A stretch of 60,008 nucleotides of DNA. Origin: Okeania sp. SIO2C9. Lineage in GTDB: Bacteria; Cyanobacteriota; Cyanobacteriia; Cyanobacteriales; Microcoleaceae. Under the pieces are notes generated by a model, which saw only the letters and a list, made by a program, of their open reading frames with translations, did not search any database and was not told the origin of the DNA. A program made the position numbers and the translations under genes. Below are positions 2,293-46,294 of this stretch, one piece after another. The stretch lies in the NCBI RefSeq assembly GCF_010672455.1, contig NZ_JAAHGO010000054.1:1-60008 (forward strand), read 5' to 3'. The first letter of the stretch is position 1; each line of letters begins with the position of its first letter.

Positions 2293-2316
2293 CAAACATA
2301 GCATTACTATTCTTGA

Positions 2317-2522
<206 letters not shown>

Positions 2523-16145: not shown

Positions 16146-19100
16146 ATGCACTACTATTCAAATATGAGCAGCGAATCCTCAAAAGTATTGAAGTTAGCTG
16201 AAGAAAAAGCTTCAAGAGGATTGTTATATCAAAAGCAGGGAAAACTAGAAGCCGCCATATTGTTATACCAAGAAGCATTAACTTTAGTACCAGACCTCCA
16301 CTACATTCAGTATAACTTGGGAATAGCTTTTCAGCATCAAGGAAATCTATCAGCAGCTTATATTCATTATCAACAAGCGATCGCTCATCATCCACAGCAT
16401 ATTCAAGCTTACTATAATATTGGCATTGTTTTACAACAACAAGGTTTACTAGATCGAGCAATTTCCAGTTATCAAAAAGTCATTAATTTATCCCAAGGTA
16501 AGGCGGAAAATATTTTAATTCAAGTTCAAGCTTATAGTAACTGGGGTAGTATTTTAGTTAAGGAAGGTAGAGCTAAGGAAGCAATCGAAATATTTCAACA
16601 AGCTATTAATTTAAAACCAGATGATGCTTCTCTCTATAATAACCAAGGCCAAGCATTTTTAGAGCTTGGGAAAGTAGAAAAAGCTATTACTAATTATCGT
16701 CAAGCACTGGCACTTAAGCCTCAATTAATAGTAGCTCGTCATAACCTCGGAAAAGTTTATCAACAACAAGGTTTGCACTCAGAAGCTATTGTTTATTTTC
16801 AGGAAATAATCAAACAGTATCCAGAAAATCTTTCTGCTCATAGTAACTGTGCTTTTTCTTTTTTGGAGTTAGGAAAGTTGGCAGCAGCAATACCCCACTT
16901 AAAAAAGGTAATTAATCATAATTCCTTTGTGGAAAGTTATTGTGAAAAAGCAGATTTTTTAACAGGGTTAGATGAATTAGAAAAAGCGAAAAGAGCTTGT
17001 GCTAGATTTCTCGTCACATTACTTGAAGAAGGAAGATGGAAGATGGAAGATGGAAAATGGAAAATGGAAGAGGGGAGAAGGGAAAAGGAAGAAGTCAAAA
17101 GTAACAAGGAAGAAGGAAGAAGGAAGAAGGAAGAAGGAAGAAAAAAGGAGTGGATGGGCACTGAAATTACTACCAGTCAAAATTCTGTAGAAGGGGGGAT
17201 ATTAAACTCAAAAGAAATAGATAATTTATATTTAGCACAAGAAGTCACAACTCAAAACTCACAACTCAAAACTCAAAATTTAAAAGGAAGAAAAAAGGAG
17301 TGGATGGGCACTGAAATTACTACCAGTCAAAATTCTGTAGAAGGGGGGATATTAAACTCAAAAGAAATAGATAATTTATATTTAGCACAAGAAGTCACAA
17401 CTCAAAACTCACAACTCAAAACTCAAAATTTAAAAGGAAGAAAAAAGGAGTGGATGGGCACTGAAATTACTACCAGTCAAAATTCTGTAGAAGGGGGGAT
17501 ATTAAACTCAAAAGAAATAGATAATTTATATTTAGCAGAAGTTAGAAAAAATTTAATCTTAACTTACTCAAGTTTGGGAAATGTATTATTTGAATATGGC
17601 GAATATTCACAGTCAGAGAATTATTATCAAAAAGCATTAAAATTTCAGCCATTAAATGTTGAATTGCATCTCAAATTAGGCAATAGTTTAGCAAAACAAA
17701 AACGCTTCAATACGGCTATTATTGTTTACCATTTAGGGTTGGCAGTTGAACCAGATAATTCTGCCATTTCTCAAGCATTAGAAAAAGTTTTAGCAAAACG
17801 CAATAACTCTGAAGAAATAAGAAGGAAGAAAGAAGAAGGCAGAAGTAGAAAGGAAGAAGTAGAAAGGAAGAAAGAAGAAGGCAGAAGGAAAAAGTCGATG
17901 GATACTCAAATCCTAACCCATTGTCAAAACCCAGTAGATGGCGAGATATTAAACCTAAAAGAAGAAGACAAAAATAATCAAGTTATTTGTCAAGGCTTAA
18001 ACTGCCAACCTTGTCTCAAACGAATATTTAAACAACTTCAACCAATTAATTTAGGAAATGGTATTCATAGTCTTTCTAGGGAAAAAACACAAACAATAAA
18101 TATTGACTTTCCAGAAACACCAAAATTCGTCACAGAAGTAGTAAATGGCAAAGCATGGATAGTTCCTCAAAAAAATAATTGGATGATTTGTAATGCCATT
18201 GCCATTATTAATCAAGAGAATCAATTATTAGCTGAAGTCTCCCGTGAATACCCAGGTCAGTTGCCAGGATGTGACAAATACGATATTAATAACCATCGAT
18301 TTTTTAGTACCGAAGAATTACCACCTTTAGAGCAAATAAACGGTACAGTAGCAGTTTTATCTGGATTGTCAGGAAATGTTTATTTTCATTGGATGGTAGA
18401 CATATTGCCCCGGATCGAAATATTGCGACGCAATGGCATAAATTTTGACCAAATAGATTGGTTTTTAATTAATAGTACTAAACAACCATTTCAACAGGAA
18501 ACTCTCCGGATTTTAGGAATTCCAGAAGATAAAATTATAGAAAGCGATCGCCATCCCTATATTCAAGCTAAAAAATTAATAGTTCCATCCTTTTCAAGCC
18601 ATTTAGCTTGGGTAGAAAAATGGGTCTTAGAATTTCACCGTCAAGTATTTTTAAACCGATCAATGTCTACTCTGCTTAAAGATAGGTTTAAACGAAAAGA
18701 AAATCAGCATAATCAAGTGATTTATTATCCTGAAAGGATTTATATCAGTCGGAATAAAGCTAAATATAGAAGAGTTATTAATGAAGAAAAAGTAATCGAT
18801 CTATTAAATCAATACGACTTCATAAGTATCGAACTAGAAACTCTTTCTGTTGTAGAGCAAGTAGCTTTATTTGCCAATGCCAAAGTCATAGTTTCTCCTC
18901 ATGGTAGTGGATTGACAAATATTATGTTTTGTACTCCAGAAACTACTGTTATTGAGTTAGTTTCTCCTAACTATATTAAGCATTATTACTGGGCGATCGC
19001 TCAAAAATTAGGATTAAAGTATTACTACTTAGTAGGAGAAGAATTTACCTATTACCCAATCCGCCAAATCATGTATCCTAATTCCCTAACTGAAGATATT

Positions 19101-22100
19101 ATAATTAACCTTAGTAAACTAGAAAAAATGCTATCGCAAGCAAGTATAATAAAAGTAAATTCCCATCCCACAGTAAAATTTCTGAGTGAGGAACAAACTT
19201 CTCAGGAAAAAATTCTTCTAGAGAAGAAACTCTCTAATTCTCAAGTTGATGTATTAACCTTTTCCCAAAAAGGTGAAGAAGATAATGTAAGTCGAACTGC
19301 AGTAAGTAATCAAATGGCACCTAAAGTTAATCAAACAGAAGCGGCCACTCACTTCCATAAAAAAGCTCTATTCTATTTAGATCAAAAGAAATTAGACGAA
19401 GCTAAAGCAGCTTGTGAACAAGCTCTAAAAAATCAACCAGATTTTGCCGAAGCCTGCAAAACAATGGGCATTATTGTGCAAAAAGAAGGTCAAATAGAAG
19501 CGGCTTTTGAGTGGTATTCACGAGCTATTAATATTCAACCAAATTTTGCCGAAGCCTATGTTAATATAGGCACTTTATATGCTCGCAAACAACAGTGGCA
19601 AGAAGCAATTGAGTACTATCAAAAAGCTATTACTATTAAACCAGATTTAGCCCCAGCCTACCGCAACATAGCTAAGGCATATCAGAAAGTTGGCAAAGTA
19701 GTAGAAGCAGCAATTTTTCAATATAAAGCCTACTGTCTAGAACCCACAAATATCAAAGAAAAAGAATATATAAACCTAGGCAATACTCTCTTAAAAAATC
19801 AGAAATTAACAGAAGCTATATCTTGTTATCGTAGCGCTATAAAATTAAATCCTAATTCAGCAGTAGCTTATCAAAATATCGCCGAAGCATTATCCCAAAC
19901 AGGTGATTTTGAAGAATCGAATACTTGTTATCGCAAGGCGATTAAATTAGGAATAACAAACCTCTCCAATGTCAATGGTAACTTAGGTAAAAAAATATCT
20001 AATTTATCTGCCAAAAATACAGCAAATCAAATAAATTCAACAATAATTAACCAGGAAGAAGGAAAAAATAAAAATTCAAAAGTCAAAAGTCAAAAGTTAA
20101 AAGGAAGAAGTGGTGCGACAGATAATCTTTCTGTAGAGCGAGATCATGTAGAAGCTTATAAAAGATTAGGAAAAATGCTGCAAAATCAAGGTCAGGCAGC
20201 AGAAGCTTGGCAGTGGTATACAAAAGCGATATCTATTGCACCAAAAGATCCAGAAATTTATAGAGATTTAGGTAGTTTATACGGACAACAACAACAATGG
20301 CAAGAAGCAATCCAATGTTATCAAAGAGCAATTGAAATATGCCCAAATATGGCAGATGTCAACCGTTATTTAGCAACAGCATTAACTCATGTTGGTCAGC
20401 ACGCAGAGGCCTCTAAATTTTGGGAAAAAGCTTATTCTCTAGAACCAGAAACAGCAACAGCAGAAGAACATTTGCTCTTAGGTAATACCCTGTTACGAAT
20501 GAATTTAGTAGAGCAAGCAATATCATGTTATTATCATGCTATACAAATTAATCCCAAATTAGCAGTAGCATATCAGAACTTAGGGGAAGCTTTGAAACTT
20601 CAATCTAATTCCCAACTCTCTCATCCACAAGTTGAAGAAGGAAGAAGAAATACCGAAGTTGAAAGAAGGAAAAAGTCGATGGGGACTCAAACCCCAACCA
20701 ATTCCAATTTTCAACACCCTGTAGACGGCGGGGTATTAAACCCAAAATCAAAAGATCAAACTTATGTAAATAATAGCGATATAAATCATCATATCTATAG
20801 TTTTAAACCAGATATTACACATAAAATTGATGGAGCAATAGATCAGGAGCGGGTCAGTAATTCGGATATTCAGTTAGTAGGAAATACTGGTACTTTTCAA
20901 TCACCATTAAAATATTTTGAGCAATTTTTCAAGCAGTTATTTTATGGAGTAGCTGCTGTTTTTAATTTCCATCATCAATCATCGAAAAAATATTTACAAC
21001 CATCTAAAAATATTCCCATACTTCAGGGTACAAATAATTACTTCCCTTTAAAACCAGAAATAGATTTTAATATCAAATATACAACAGAAACTGCTGGTGA
21101 AAACTTATTATTTCCTGTTGAAGTAAATTTAACCAATACTGATAAAAATGAGCAAAAAAAAGCATTAATAAAAGATGCAAGTAACGAATTAGAAAAAATA
21201 GAAGAAGCATTACCAAAAATAGATAGACCACAAATAGAAAGCAGCATTGTCAAAAGTCAAAAGTTAAAAGAAAGAAATCAGAAGTGGATGGGGACTCAAA
21301 CTCCAACAAATTTTCAACACCCTGTAGACGGCGGGGTATTAAACCCAAAAGATAAAATAGATACACAAATCAACGCTCAATATGTTGATGTCACAAAATC
21401 AGCGGTCGTACTACCCGATGTTTATATTCAAAAAGCCATAGCATACAACCAAGAAGGGTTATACGAACAGGCGATCGCCCAATGTCAGCAAGCTATAGCA
21501 GTACAACCAGAGATGGCCATGGCATACAAAATATTGGGTAATGCTCAACAAAAAATAGGCAGTGCTAGTCAACTCCAGGAAGCCAAACAAAATTATCTCA
21601 AAGCTATATCCCTCGATAGTCAAGATCCTTCAATTCATGTCAACCTAGGTAGTTTGTACGCACAAGAGGAATTATGGGAAAAAGCAATACCCTGTTATCA
21701 AAAAGCGATTGCCATCAAACCAGACTTTGCCGGAGCATATCGCAACTTAGCTAAAGCATGGACTCAAGTTGGTAAACAAGCAGAAGCAGCAGACTGTTGG
21801 TATGAAGCATACACTCTAACCCCGGAAAACATCACTCCCGACCAACATCTAAATCTCGGTAATACCCTCTGTCGTCAAGGTCAATTAACTAAAGCCATAT
21901 TCTGTTATCAGAAGGCGATAAAATTAAACCCAAACTACACTGCTGCTTATCAAAATTTGGCTACAACTTTGAAACGTCAAGGCAAGGTAAATGAGGCTGC
22001 TATTTATGCTCAAAAAGCTCGGGAAATTAGTAATATTTCAGTGAAAAAACAGGTAGAAGTGAACGGCAAGAAACTTCAATATGTTAATCCTGAAGATGTT

Positions 22101-23072
22101 TTGCAGTCATATTCAAATTCAATGGAAGAAGTCGAAAGTCAAAAGTTAGAAATCAAAAGTCAAAAGTTAGAAATTGAAGAAGTCAAAAGTCAAAAGTGGA
22201 TGGGAACTCAAAACCCAATCAATTTTCAACACCCTGTAGATGGCGGGGTATTACACCCAAAATCAAAAGATAAAAAAGAGAAGGAGAAGTTGCCTCAAAT
22301 TAATCAAGCAGATTTAATTAAACAAGCCGAAGCATATTTTGTCAATAGTAAATTCTATGACGCTATCGCCACTTGTGAAGAGGCAATTTCCATAAAACCC
22401 CATGCAGTAGCTTATCAAATAATGGGTAAATCTTGGGTAGAAATAAATAAACCAGACGAAGCGATCGTCGCTTATCAAAAAGCAATTGAAATCAAGCCAA
22501 ACTTTGCCGAAATTTATGTCAGTTTGGGAGAATTATACGTTCAACATCAACGACAAAAAGAAGCGATAATTGCCTACAAAAAAGCCATCAAATTTGCACC
22601 AGACTTAAAAGATAGTTATCGAGGTTTAGTTGAAGTCTTGCTAGACCAAGGAAAAGTTGATGAAGCAGAAGAATTATCTTACAATGCACTCATGCAACAT
22701 CCCGGTTGGGCAACTGCCCAAGAGTTTTGTACTTTAGGTAGTGGTTTAATAGCAGAGAATAAAACACAGCAAGGGATAGCTTGTTTTTATCAAGCAATTG
22801 AATTAGACCCCAAATTATTAGAAGCTCACTATAGTTTAGGCAAAGCTTTAGCAGAAAAAGGAGAATGGTTAGAAGCCATCAATTGTTATCAGCAAGTTAT
22901 TGAATTAGAAGCGAATGAAACTCAAGAAAATTATTCTGAAAGTGAGATAAATATAGATATAGGAGAAGTTTACCATCTTTTAGGAGATGCCTTACAAGAA
23001 ATAGGTAAACTTGATGAGTCTGTGGCAGCTTATCAAGGCGCTATTGAAATAACAGGAAATGAACCATATTAA
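16146..23072 (+). CDS. Giant TPR protein with embedded GT61 (DUF563) glycosyltransferase
   Basis: 2,308 residues from ATG 16146 (an ATG at 16164 is equally possible). TPR blocks lie at about 10-290, 470-550, 1065-1270, 1330-1490, 1760-1960 and 2055-2300, with typical YxNxGxxxxxxGxxxxAIxxYxxAIxLxP units. In the middle (about 625-985) is a GT61-type glycosyltransferase with HWMVDILPRIE, YISRNKAKYRR, SPHGSGLTNIMF and TVIELVSPNY. The linkers between blocks are low-complexity: EEGRRKK stretches and a recurring module KWMGTQTPTNFQHPVDGGVL. The DNA of these linkers matches intergenic repeats of this window. It has no signal peptide, so it is likely cytoplasmic and scaffolds glycan transfer. It heads the TPR/glycosyltransferase cluster. 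A long open frame despite many repeats argues that it is expressed. Confidence 0.88.
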   Translation: MHYYSNMSSESSKVLKLAEEKASRGLLYQKQGKLEAAILLYQEALTLVPDLHYIQYNLGIAFQHQGNLSAAYIHYQQAIAHHPQHIQAYYNIGIVLQQQGLLDRAISSYQKVINLSQGKAENILIQVQAYSNWGSILVKEGRAKEAIEIFQQAINLKPDDASLYNNQGQAFLELGKVEKAITNYRQALALKPQLIVARHNLGKVYQQQGLHSEAIVYFQEIIKQYPENLSAHSNCAFSFLELGKLAAAIPHLKKVINHNSFVESYCEKADFLTGLDELEKAKRACARFLVTLLEEGRWKMEDGKWKMEEGRREKEEVKSNKEEGRRKKEEGRKKEWMGTEITTSQNSVEGGILNSKEIDNLYLAQEVTTQNSQLKTQNLKGRKKEWMGTEITTSQNSVEGGILNSKEIDNLYLAQEVTTQNSQLKTQNLKGRKKEWMGTEITTSQNSVEGGILNSKEIDNLYLAEVRKNLILTYSSLGNVLFEYGEYSQSENYYQKALKFQPLNVELHLKLGNSLAKQKRFNTAIIVYHLGLAVEPDNSAISQALEKVLAKRNNSEEIRRKKEEGRSRKEEVERKKEEGRRKKSMDTQILTHCQNPVDGEILNLKEEDKNNQVICQGLNCQPCLKRIFKQLQPINLGNGIHSLSREKTQTINIDFPETPKFVTEVVNGKAWIVPQKNNWMICNAIAIINQENQLLAEVSREYPGQLPGCDKYDINNHRFFSTEELPPLEQINGTVAVLSGLSGNVYFHWMVDILPRIEILRRNGINFDQIDWFLINSTKQPFQQETLRILGIPEDKIIESDRHPYIQAKKLIVPSFSSHLAWVEKWVLEFHRQVFLNRSMSTLLKDRFKRKENQHNQVIYYPERIYISRNKAKYRRVINEEKVIDLLNQYDFISIELETLSVVEQVALFANAKVIVSPHGSGLTNIMFCTPETTVIELVSPNYIKHYYWAIAQKLGLKYYYLVGEEFTYYPIRQIMYPNSLTEDIIINLSKLEKMLSQASIIKVNSHPTVKFLSEEQTSQEKILLEKKLSNSQVDVLTFSQKGEEDNVSRTAVSNQMAPKVNQTEAATHFHKKALFYLDQKKLDEAKAACEQALKNQPDFAEACKTMGIIVQKEGQIEAAFEWYSRAINIQPNFAEAYVNIGTLYARKQQWQEAIEYYQKAITIKPDLAPAYRNIAKAYQKVGKVVEAAIFQYKAYCLEPTNIKEKEYINLGNTLLKNQKLTEAISCYRSAIKLNPNSAVAYQNIAEALSQTGDFEESNTCYRKAIKLGITNLSNVNGNLGKKISNLSAKNTANQINSTIINQEEGKNKNSKVKSQKLKGRSGATDNLSVERDHVEAYKRLGKMLQNQGQAAEAWQWYTKAISIAPKDPEIYRDLGSLYGQQQQWQEAIQCYQRAIEICPNMADVNRYLATALTHVGQHAEASKFWEKAYSLEPETATAEEHLLLGNTLLRMNLVEQAISCYYHAIQINPKLAVAYQNLGEALKLQSNSQLSHPQVEEGRRNTEVERRKKSMGTQTPTNSNFQHPVDGGVLNPKSKDQTYVNNSDINHHIYSFKPDITHKIDGAIDQERVSNSDIQLVGNTGTFQSPLKYFEQFFKQLFYGVAAVFNFHHQSSKKYLQPSKNIPILQGTNNYFPLKPEIDFNIKYTTETAGENLLFPVEVNLTNTDKNEQKKALIKDASNELEKIEEALPKIDRPQIESSIVKSQKLKERNQKWMGTQTPTNFQHPVDGGVLNPKDKIDTQINAQYVDVTKSAVVLPDVYIQKAIAYNQEGLYEQAIAQCQQAIAVQPEMAMAYKILGNAQQKIGSASQLQEAKQNYLKAISLDSQDPSIHVNLGSLYAQEELWEKAIPCYQKAIAIKPDFAGAYRNLAKAWTQVGKQAEAADCWYEAYTLTPENITPDQHLNLGNTLCRQGQLTKAIFCYQKAIKLNPNYTAAYQNLATTLKRQGKVNEAAIYAQKAREISNISVKKQVEVNGKKLQYVNPEDVLQSYSNSMEEVESQKLEIKSQKLEIEEVKSQKWMGTQNPINFQHPVDGGVLHPKSKDKKEKEKLPQINQADLIKQAEAYFVNSKFYDAIATCEEAISIKPHAVAYQIMGKSWVEINKPDEAIVAYQKAIEIKPNFAEIYVSLGELYVQHQRQKEAIIAYKKAIKFAPDLKDSYRGLVEVLLDQGKVDEAEELSYNALMQHPGWATAQEFCTLGSGLIAENKTQQGIACFYQAIELDPKLLEAHYSLGKALAEKGEWLEAINCYQQVIELEANETQENYSESEINIDIGEVYHLLGDALQEIGKLDESVAAYQGAIEITGNEPY
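17161..17541 (+). repeat. 150-bp coding tandem repeat, two full copies and a partial third
   Basis: 17161-17310 and 17311-17460 are identical, and 17461-17537 starts a third copy. The unit encodes TEITTSQNSVEGGILNSKE, IDNLYLAQEVTTQNSQLKTQ and NLKGRKKEWMG. The unit length is a multiple of three, so the frame is kept. Identity suggests a very recent duplication. Confidence 0.95.
17815..17965 (+). repeat. In-frame repeat module (EEGRxKK + MDTQ..NPVDGEIL)
   Basis: GAAGAAATAAGAAGGAAG-type units are followed by TCGATGGATACTCAAATCC and CCCAGTAGATGGCGAGATAT. It is a diverged coding copy of the module found intergenically at 24634-24706 and 2370-2415. Confidence 0.8.
20620..20755 (+). repeat. In-frame repeat module (KKSMGTQTP..FQHPVDGGVLNPK)
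   Basis: GTTGAAGAAGGAAGAAGAAA leads into ATGGGGACTCAAACCCCAAC, TTTTCAACACCCTGTAGACG and GCGGGGTATTAAACCCAAAA. The first half matches the non-coding copy at 24634-24706; the second half matches 2385-2415 and 46140-46170. Confidence 0.85.
21245..21352 (+). repeat. In-frame repeat module (KWMGTQTPTNFQHPVDGGVL)
   Basis: AAAAGTCAAAAGTTAAAAG heptamers are followed by AAGTGGATGGGGACTCAAAC, TTTTCAACACCCTGTAGACG and GCGGGGTATTAAACCC. The run from AAGTGG to CAACACC is almost identical to intergenic 24660-24703. Confidence 0.88.
22125..22265 (+). repeat. In-frame repeat module (KWMGTQNPINFQHPVDGGVL)
   Basis: Tandem GTCAAAAGT units (coding ESQKLEIKSQKLEIEEVK) precede GTGGATGGGAACTCAAAACC and TTTTCAACACCCTGTAGATG. 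It is the fourth dispersed coding copy in the same gene. Confidence 0.85.
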
Positions 23073-24170: not shown

Positions 24171-24596
24171 TTACCGAAAAATTGTGGGTATGCGCCTCCC
24201 CTTGGATAGCAGGGTCTATTTATTGTCACCAGAGAAAAAAGGAGGGGGGTGGGAAGTGTGGGGAGTGTGGGGAGTGTGGGGAGTGTGGGGAGTGTGGGGA
24301 GTGTGGGGAGTGTGGGGAGTGTGGGGAGTGTGGGGAGTGTGGGGAGTGTGGGAAGCACAGGATATCAAAAAAATATAGGGTTGTAAATATTCTCTGACGA
24401 CAAAGAATTAGCCCTGCCCCTTGGATAGGGGATAATAAGCGGTCGTTTGCGCAGCATTCCGTAGGATGGGATGACGAGGTCTCGGAGCCATATCCAATCG
24501 ACTCCTGTGAAGAAAAATTTTCATCTCTTTGTCAATCCTCTTCAATTCATGGAGAGGTAATTATTCATTATTCATTATTCATTATTCATTGTTGAA
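24171..24596 (-). repeat. Miniature element, family A (copy A5), itself interrupted
   Basis: Reverse orientation with TTACCG, GCCTCCCCTTGGATAG, then a 207-bp insert. The element resumes CCCCTTGGATAGGGGATAAT, AGCGGTCG, CATATCCAATCGACTCC, CCTCTTCAATTCATGGAGAG and ATTCATT tandem units. It interrupts the Uma2 gene. Confidence 0.88.
24210..24416. mobile_element. 207-bp insertion with 12-bp target duplication and minisatellite
   Basis: It is flanked by the direct repeat CCCCTTGGATAG (24198-24209 and 24417-24428). The ends CAGGGTCTATTTATTGTC and the reverse complement CAGGGCTAATTCTTTGTC match at 13 of 18 positions. The interior carries about eleven GTGTGGGGA nonamers (about 24256-24352). No transposase is present, so it is non-autonomous. 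Long target duplications are known in some IS4-type groups, but the parent family is not identified. Confidence 0.8.
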
Positions 24597-24633: not shown

Positions 24634-24706
24634 GTTGAAGAAGGAAGAAGAAAGAAGAAAAAAGTGGATGGGGACTCAAACTCCAACCAATTTTCAACAC
24701 CGTTCC
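24634..24706 (+). repeat. Non-coding copy of the KWMGTQTPTNFQ repeat module
   Basis: GTTGAAGAAGGAAGAAGAAA leads into AAGTGGATGGGGACTCAAAC and CCAATTTTCAACACC. It is almost identical to coding DNA at 20630-20735 and 21283-21325, but lies between genes. Confidence 0.85.

Positions 24707-46008: not shown

Positions 46009-46294
<286 letters not shown>

Follow-up and report, generated by a model that had tools for sequence, protein, structure and literature searches.

A dispersed DNA element with fixed ends (TTGAAGAAGG...AAAAAG) and a median length of ~120 bp is present in the genome of the cyanobacterium Okeania sp. SIO2C9, where copies lie between genes and, nearly always in one reading frame, inside the coding sequences of unrelated proteins. 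Sister species carry filled and empty alleles at the same positions, and most of the empty alleles locate the insertions at an ATAA tetranucleotide. We consider it probable that this repeat is a non-autonomous, transposase-less element of the IS200/IS605 type (i.e. a 'palindrome-associated transposable element') that is moved in trans and whose copies within genes are tolerated. The analysis followed from a window of 60,008 nucleotides (contig NZ_JAAHGO010000054.1), in which a sequence-only reading had noted that the linkers of a 2,308-residue protein are made of DNA that also occurs between genes.

Structure, copy number and distribution of the element

Copies were sought using a search model built from 27 examples. 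The own genome (10.88 Mb, 317 contigs) yielded at least 150 matches with E <= 1.5e-4 to this model, the figure of 150 being a lower bound, and a repeat with matches of this quality is not a product of chance. For the 146 matches that were read with their flanks, a recognisable 5' end was present in 92, a 3' ATAA in 123 and both in 77, with lengths of 87-243 bp (median 123) for the two-ended copies. In the coding sense, the element runs from TTGAAGAAGG through heptamer arrays (GAAGGAA, GGAGACA, GGAGTCA or AAAAGTC, occasionally with other nested repeats) to a 77-bp core, TGGATGGGGACTCAAACCCCAACCAATT..CACCCTGTAGACGGCGGGGTATTAAACCCAAAAGAAAAAG, followed by ATAA. Sequence conservation was 0.95 at the last A of GATAA and fell to ~0.5 and then to background. 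The number of heptamers varies between copies, and whole units also occur as tandem arrays.

Ten copies of the core, whole or partial, are present in the window, and all positions at which the sequence-only reading had placed its module do carry copies (Table 1), as part of a larger phenomenon, with 150 or more copies genome-wide and no fewer than 87 in any of the four congeners. Two of the intergenic copies, at 2385-2415 and 46140-46170, had been taken for second halves of the module and proved to be whole, diverged elements with both ends. Heptamers do accompany both coding and intergenic copies, as had been claimed, but they are internal, lying between the 5' end and the core and not in the flanks. 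Pfam families assigned to the window protein were TPR families and PF04577 (Glyco_transf_61, aa 746-936). Its five insertions have lengths of 498, 159, 123, 105 and 147 bp, every one divisible by 3, and share one reading frame, as the earlier reading had it; the tetranucleotide that follows each insert always falls in one codon phase of the gene and is altered by one base in two of the five (ACAA and ATCA). Elsewhere in the window, GGGGAGTGT units are arranged in tandem at 24255-24350, close to the intergenic copy that has lost its 3' part, and ATATCATGTCCGG is found in both orientations at around 23290, 23430, 24810, 24945 and 46010, and is probably another small dispersed element.

Table 1. 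Copies of the element and related features in the window. Copies are delimited from the element start to the last base ahead of ATAA; a slash marks the position of the junction in an empty allele; G001-G004 are congeners.
Feature	Position	Strand	Remarks
Host gene, 2,308-aa TPR/glycosyltransferase-61 protein	16146..23072	+	ORF; five insertions, seven core copies
Coding element, three tandem units, 498 bp, in frame	17023..17520	+	150-bp period
Empty target ATAA in the window gene	17755..17758	+	Same site filled in G003 and G004
Coding element, 159 bp, in frame	17809..17967	+	Directly ahead of the GT61 domain
Coding element, 123 bp, in frame	20632..20754	+	G003 filled; G021 and G016 (other genera) empty
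Coding element, 105 bp, in frame	21247..21351	+	G001 filled; G003 and G004 empty (GCAGCA/ATAAAATAGATAC)
Coding element, 147 bp, in frame	22123..22269	+	G001, G003 and G004 filled; G002 empty (TTTAA/ATAAAAAGG)
Intergenic whole copy, (GGAGACA)n subfamily	2313..2432	+	Followed by ATAA
Intergenic copy	24635..24701	+	3' part lost
Intergenic copy, whole but diverged	46032..46179	+	Followed by ATAA

Distribution was examined in 39 genomes. The own genome and four Okeania congeners gave 87-122 matches each (87-121 in the congeners), all of them lower bounds, and a single copy was observed in each of three of the 19 genomes from other genera of the family, with none in the 15 genomes from other families. 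In a stricter class-wide sample, seemingly without congeners, the element was found in the own genome only and in none of 290 others.

The termini (TTGAAGAAGG and AAAAAG), as read from the sequence, are not inverted repeats. Two subterminal helices were named by hand and their pairing then counted, with 87% of cells paired as compared to 38-52% when the helices were slid. No covariation beyond that of shuffles was detected in the two helices, RNAalifold returned 8 pairs only from the 27 copies, and the six weak Rfam matches for four copies (E of 1.4-8.6, all below gathering scores) were taken as chance. On the strand opposite to the coding sense, TTAT immediately precedes the element, whose last four bases are TCAA, and the order along this transposition strand is TTAT/CTTTTTCTTTTGGGTTTAAT-(hairpin ACCCCGC..GGGT)-...CAAT-(hairpin TGGTTGGGG..CCCCATCCA)-heptamers-CTTCTTCAA/, where slashes mark the two junctions. 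How far TCAA lies from the right hairpin depends on the heptamers.

Empty alleles and the target site

Congener genomes were searched for the sites of 17 of the 21 ORFs that hold copies (both ORFs of L041, L089 and L129 were left out), and presence or absence at exact positions was found to differ between sister species. Pairs of empty and filled alleles were obtained within the genus for 12 sites, of which three are intergenic and nine coding (i.e. the DUF1688 gene; 17755, 21247 and 22123 in the window; the ThyX intein; and sites G13, G16, G02 and G11). At ten of the 12, the junction of the empty allele reads ATAA (TTAT on the opposite strand), for which the chance probability is ~5e-19 at the window frequency of 0.0097 ATAA per base, with the motif having been chosen post hoc. 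At 17755, for example, the own genome and G002 read GTTGAACCAG/ATAATTCTGCC and G004 reads GTTGAATCTG(TTGAAGAAGG...CAAAAG)ATAATTCTGCC. In eight of the ten ATAA pairs the flanks match in length and differ by point changes alone; in the other two the right flank differs in length just 3' of ATAA, by 6 bases at 22123 (a few bases onward, in the empty allele of G002) and by 2 at C24:651705. The remaining two empty alleles show another tetranucleotide at the same place (CAAA at G11 and ACAC at C24:681877), and one base of the tetranucleotide is altered in the filled alleles of G13 and G02. No target duplication was observed in any of the 12 site pairs and the termini are unlike each other, without terminal inverted repeats, and a classical MITE was rejected on these grounds.

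Comparisons at C252:149655 (G002 and G004), C24:786448 (G002 and G004, with another insert there) and C113:75386 (G003, filled and longer) were set aside as unclean. RecJ, 17023 and 20632, for which empty alleles occur in other genera only, and 17809, which offered no clean comparison, stand outside the 12. At 17023, the inserts of G002-G004 are built differently and G021, G008 and G006 have none. The RecJ site holds inserts in the own genome and all four congeners, those of G001 and G004 consisting of heptamers without the core; the corresponding stretch has 13-19 residues in Trichodesmium, Hydrocoleum, one Microcoleaceae genome and two records likewise labelled Okeania (SIO2F4 and SIO3I5), and 2-24 residues in other cyanobacteria. 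The direction of change is read as insertion rather than loss because the window-gene orthologues from other genera (G021, G008, G006 and G016) lack the inserts. At the intergenic place C24:786448, the own genome, G002 (L263) and G004 (L262) carry three different inserts. Each of them closes with ATAA where the shared flank starts, which would fit the use of one target by several elements.

Reading frame, host proteins and selection

Coding copies were listed across the genome using ORFs that span 200 aa or more from stop to stop. Most copies are non-coding, and 38 of the 146 lie within 21 ORFs, in 20 of which they are read on one strand and in one frame, encoding variants of WMGTQTPTNxxHPVDGGVLNPKEKDK (RecJ is counted among the 20 despite a shifted model start). 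The exception, a 293-aa ORF of L041, departs from this frame over the first half of the core. Two of the 20 (337 aa in L041 and 257 aa in L089) have the copy near the N end and their true start may be downstream; in the former, the first ATG is located downstream of the copy. Pfam families could be named for 16 of 20 scanned proteins (L089 was left out of the scan), and the hosts include an Rce1-like protease, a PatG-like protease, RecJ, AAA_35, PNP_UDP_1, the ThyX intein, CbiG/CobJ, DUF1688, GT2/GT41, three histidine kinases, PPDK_N/PEP-utilisers, a response regulator, a WD40 protein and the window TPR/GT61 protein. Between 37 and 431 residues are added. The figure of 431 aa corresponds to eight units inside the PPDK_N domain of L118 1604-5938 (a PEP-utilising enzyme with a glycerol-3-phosphate acyltransferase domain), whose congener orthologues differ in unit number and always keep the frame. 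In RecJ, the insert is located between DHH and DHHA1, and an AlphaFold prediction from 59 sequences gave residues 303-357 a pLDDT of < 50 and no secondary structure, with a mean of 86.

Two observations concern nesting. In L095 (own genome, 3012-4559), L338 and L339 the element lies inside the ThyX intein, i.e. a mobile element within a mobile element, and the same intein stretch in G002 and G004 is without it. Other dispersed-looking repeats (GGGAATGCGCACCAAGAGAGG and CATCCCCCCTTGCCCCCCTTTGAAAGG) are nested in the coding copies of L087, L106, L108, L041, L065, L130 and L056, also in frame, as GNADQERECAPRE and HPPLPPFERG, so that proteins seem to be invaded by several repeat families at once.

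The codon phase of the target is NAT-AAN, with N being A or G, at all eight coding sites whose empty allele reads ATAA, and likewise at all six window positions examined, two of them with a changed base. In ten window genes, ATAA occurs 102 times in this phase, 56 times as ATA-A and never as NNA-TAA, and of 108 non-coding copies only 8 keep the element frame open on entry from ATA-A. The constant frame and the recurring junctions (I/V-EEG...K-D-K/N) are explained by ATAA encoding Asn/Asp-Lys/Asn in the mostly permitted phase. Orientation was then compared with what open frames would allow. Among the 108 non-coding copies, 55 have an open antisense frame versus 25 with an open sense frame (21 versus 18 among the 30 with the 77-bp core), and the ten window genes hold 245 TTAT versus 158 ATAA, so that antisense insertion into genes would be possible. 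In contrast to the 20 sense ORFs, no antisense ORF of at least 200 aa was found, apart from a stretch upstream of the first ATG of the RecJ ORF that holds one further copy; shorter antisense ORFs with a copy (127-190 aa) were present at four places. The probability of such sense-only ORFs under equal tolerance is < 1e-6, also after removal of the two doubtful ORFs. Antisense inserts would have been purged by selection, since the antisense peptide is hydrophobic.

Every orthologous insert that was measured has a length divisible by 3. Length remainders modulo 3 were 18:19:21 for complete non-coding copies and 9:1:1 for coding ones. Differences at codon positions 1, 2 and 3 were 79:85:73 within inserts versus 172:101:321 in flanks of the same genes, for 26 pairs from 8 genes (G01, G03, G17 and pairs with >18 differences left out) that are non-independent within genes, CbiG/CobJ and the response regulator contributing 16 pairs and most of the differences. 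A first pass with 33 pairs gave 99:97:94 versus 197:114:378; a non-coding comparison of four pairs was excluded from this result. Judged from these pairs, selection acts on the frame but not on the peptide sequence, which points to inserts that are probably translated and tolerated as passengers and that would be functionally neutral for the host protein. Removal of the insert in the manner of an intein or intron was thought unlikely because the frame and the freedom from stops are kept.

Mobility of the element and relation to known systems

An IS200/IS605-type mode of movement is suggested because the two subterminal hairpins and the TCAA right end resemble the ends of IS608. A Y1 (HUH) transposase acting in trans would cut at TTAT and TCAA, and the single strand would be pasted 3' of another TTAT without target duplication, as the junctions imply. 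On the sense strand, a target in the NAT-AAN phase would most often leave the frame open; the ATA-A phase would usually run into stops of the element, and with NNA-TAA the gene itself would terminate at the target. The permitted phase would fix the frame of the peptide, with entry at I/V-EEG and exit at K-D-K/N, and would place the insert at an Asn/Asp-Lys/Asn pair, presumably in most cases an exposed polar spot. Copies with a length that is a multiple of 3 could then survive as translated, disordered and functionally neutral stretches, and others would be removed by selection. We regard it as reasonably likely that the ATAA target, together with one open frame, lets a single-strand miniature transposon enter proteins at polar, mostly exposed residues and end as a neutral loop.

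A partner transposase was sought among 50 PF01797 (Y1) loci (all 20 own matches and 30 of the 64 in congeners), using R1 and local alignment of the element ends, and at none of these loci did the element flank the transposase gene. R1 matches were present at one of the 20 own and one of the 30 congener loci, neither with both ends, and right-end-like stretches at L250 and L311 scored above shuffles. Five near-identical 1,984-bp tnpA/tnpB copies in O. hirsuta (L398-L402) have a hairpin, CCCCGCCGTGTAGACGGACGGGG, that is much like the second hairpin of the element. This IS605-type element has only a hairpin in common with it (18 of 19 nt), and its ends differ.

An origin of the repeats in the coding linkers of the window gene, with the intergenic copies as its fragments, would fit the observation that this gene has the most separate insertion sites among the 21 ORFs. 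Intergenic copies, though, bear the element's own ends and are not decayed pieces of the gene, the compared orthologues from other genera lack the linkers, and other genes were invaded at a defined target; the empty alleles refute this origin, which is extremely improbable. It is also improbable that the linkers are functional, selected parts of proteins (e.g. charged spacers) spread by recombination. That the frame is kept in every insert measured could be read in this way, as could the 20 sense ORFs set against none of at least 200 aa that is clearly antisense, though non-coding copies leave the antisense frame open no less often than the sense frame. The inserts, on the other hand, show no codon-position bias, the same genes are filled or empty depending on the sister species, unit number varies freely and most copies are non-coding.

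Two further explanations concern how the element spreads. The presence of GTAG beside a stem recalls REP/REPIN-like elements moved by a RAYT-type Y1 transposase, and GTAG REPs have been reported in cyanobacteria, with REPs inside genes of several species, in the available part of PMC3733652. By helix count, GTAG in the element spans stem and loop of hairpin 2 and is no unpaired end tag, the element continues beyond this hairpin to fixed outer ends, and none of the 50 PF01797 loci is a RAYT gene flanked by the repeat; a GTAG REP with RAYT is very unlikely and was rejected. As far as that source describes them, intragenic GTAG/CGTC REPs are palindromic, lie in ORFs, including those of DNA repair genes, and encode 20-30 aa (PMC3733652), and REPs differ from the Okeania element in their size of 20-40 bp, tagged ends and RAYT association. 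Growth from heptamer arrays without a transposase, as a small retro-element or a replication-slippage repeat, would account for the variable heptamer arrays inside the element and the tandem arrays of whole units. Cyanobacterial SDRs are said by Elhai to lie in heptamers, with movement through RNA suggested, which would favour such an origin. Against it stand single, two-ended insertions at a defined tetranucleotide and empty sites without heptamers, and we consider it unlikely.

The IS200/IS605-type reading was compared with IS608, for which the available text of PMC5934647 gives TTAC and TCAA as left and right cleavage sites (CL and CR), insertion 3' of TTAC, guides AAAG and GAAT 5' of two hairpins, and pairing of A16 and A17 with target T-3 and T-4. 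The Okeania element resembles it in insertion 3' of TTA(C/T), a right TCAA and guides 5' of two hairpins, identified by eye and not by biochemistry (TAAT and CAAT at the hairpin bases, with the right end CTTCTTCAA/), and is unlike it in having no tnpA, a TTAT target and variable right-end spacing. PATEs of Haloquadratum are IS605-related, lack terminal inverted repeats and target duplication, have near-terminal palindromes and are too short for a transposase, and one of 52 bp may be mobile, according to the accessible account (PMC3119063). The absence of terminal inverted repeats and target duplication and the subterminal hairpins are common to both; the PATE account, in the part available, is without recurrent in-frame use in proteins, and no matching IS605 was found for the Okeania element.

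Among cyanobacteria, the SDR elements of Nostoc, reportedly described by Elhai in 2008, are said to be small (21-27 nt) and often to lie within heptamer arrays, and we know of no in-frame use of them in proteins. MITEb and MITEe of Anabaena PCC 7120 are named, in the accessible text of PMC10969869, among MITEs with ORFs that code for proteins or peptides. That mention aside, no cyanobacterial case like the present one was recognised in a literature for which coverage was thin on subscription papers and on the figures and files of PMC3733652. The earlier statement that no cyanobacterial equivalent has been described holds to this extent, but in-frame intragenic palindromic repeats are a known kind, published for several other bacteria (PMC3733652, in the part available).

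The closest parallel in behaviour is offered by the Rickettsia palindromic elements (RPEs), described in the accessible parts of PMC10969869 and PMC3733652 as short elements in many copies that encode a recurring peptide, in frame, within many unrelated genes. The RPE-like reading first given to the window was borne out by the single frame shared by 20 of 21 ORFs from several unrelated genes, by the recurrence of the peptide, by the same-position empty alleles of sister species and by the absence of inserts from the compared window-gene orthologues of other genera. Neither outcome that would have refuted that reading occurred, since these orthologues are without such linkers and the intergenic copies are elements in their own right; this likeness is one of behaviour alone and not of compared sequence. 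Unlike RPEs, the element is found in a free-living cyanobacterium and has defined ends, a TTAT target known from empty alleles, IS200/IS605-like termini and internal heptamer arrays. These termini are a refinement of the RPE-like reading and suggest a mechanism that it had not included. To our knowledge, the route by which RPE-like elements enter proteins is not settled. Filled and empty alleles in sister species make target site, codon phase, orientation bias, copy-number growth and peptide evolution directly readable, and hosts such as RecJ, CbiG/CobJ and the ThyX intein are assayable enzymes that provide natural insertion experiments on protein tolerance. The element is also a candidate for in vitro tests of a transposase acting on a protein-coding miniature element. 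If the proposed mode of movement is true, the RPE phenomenon would gain a transposition mechanism, and the invasion of proteins by DNA elements would be recurrent and predictable outside intracellular bacteria.
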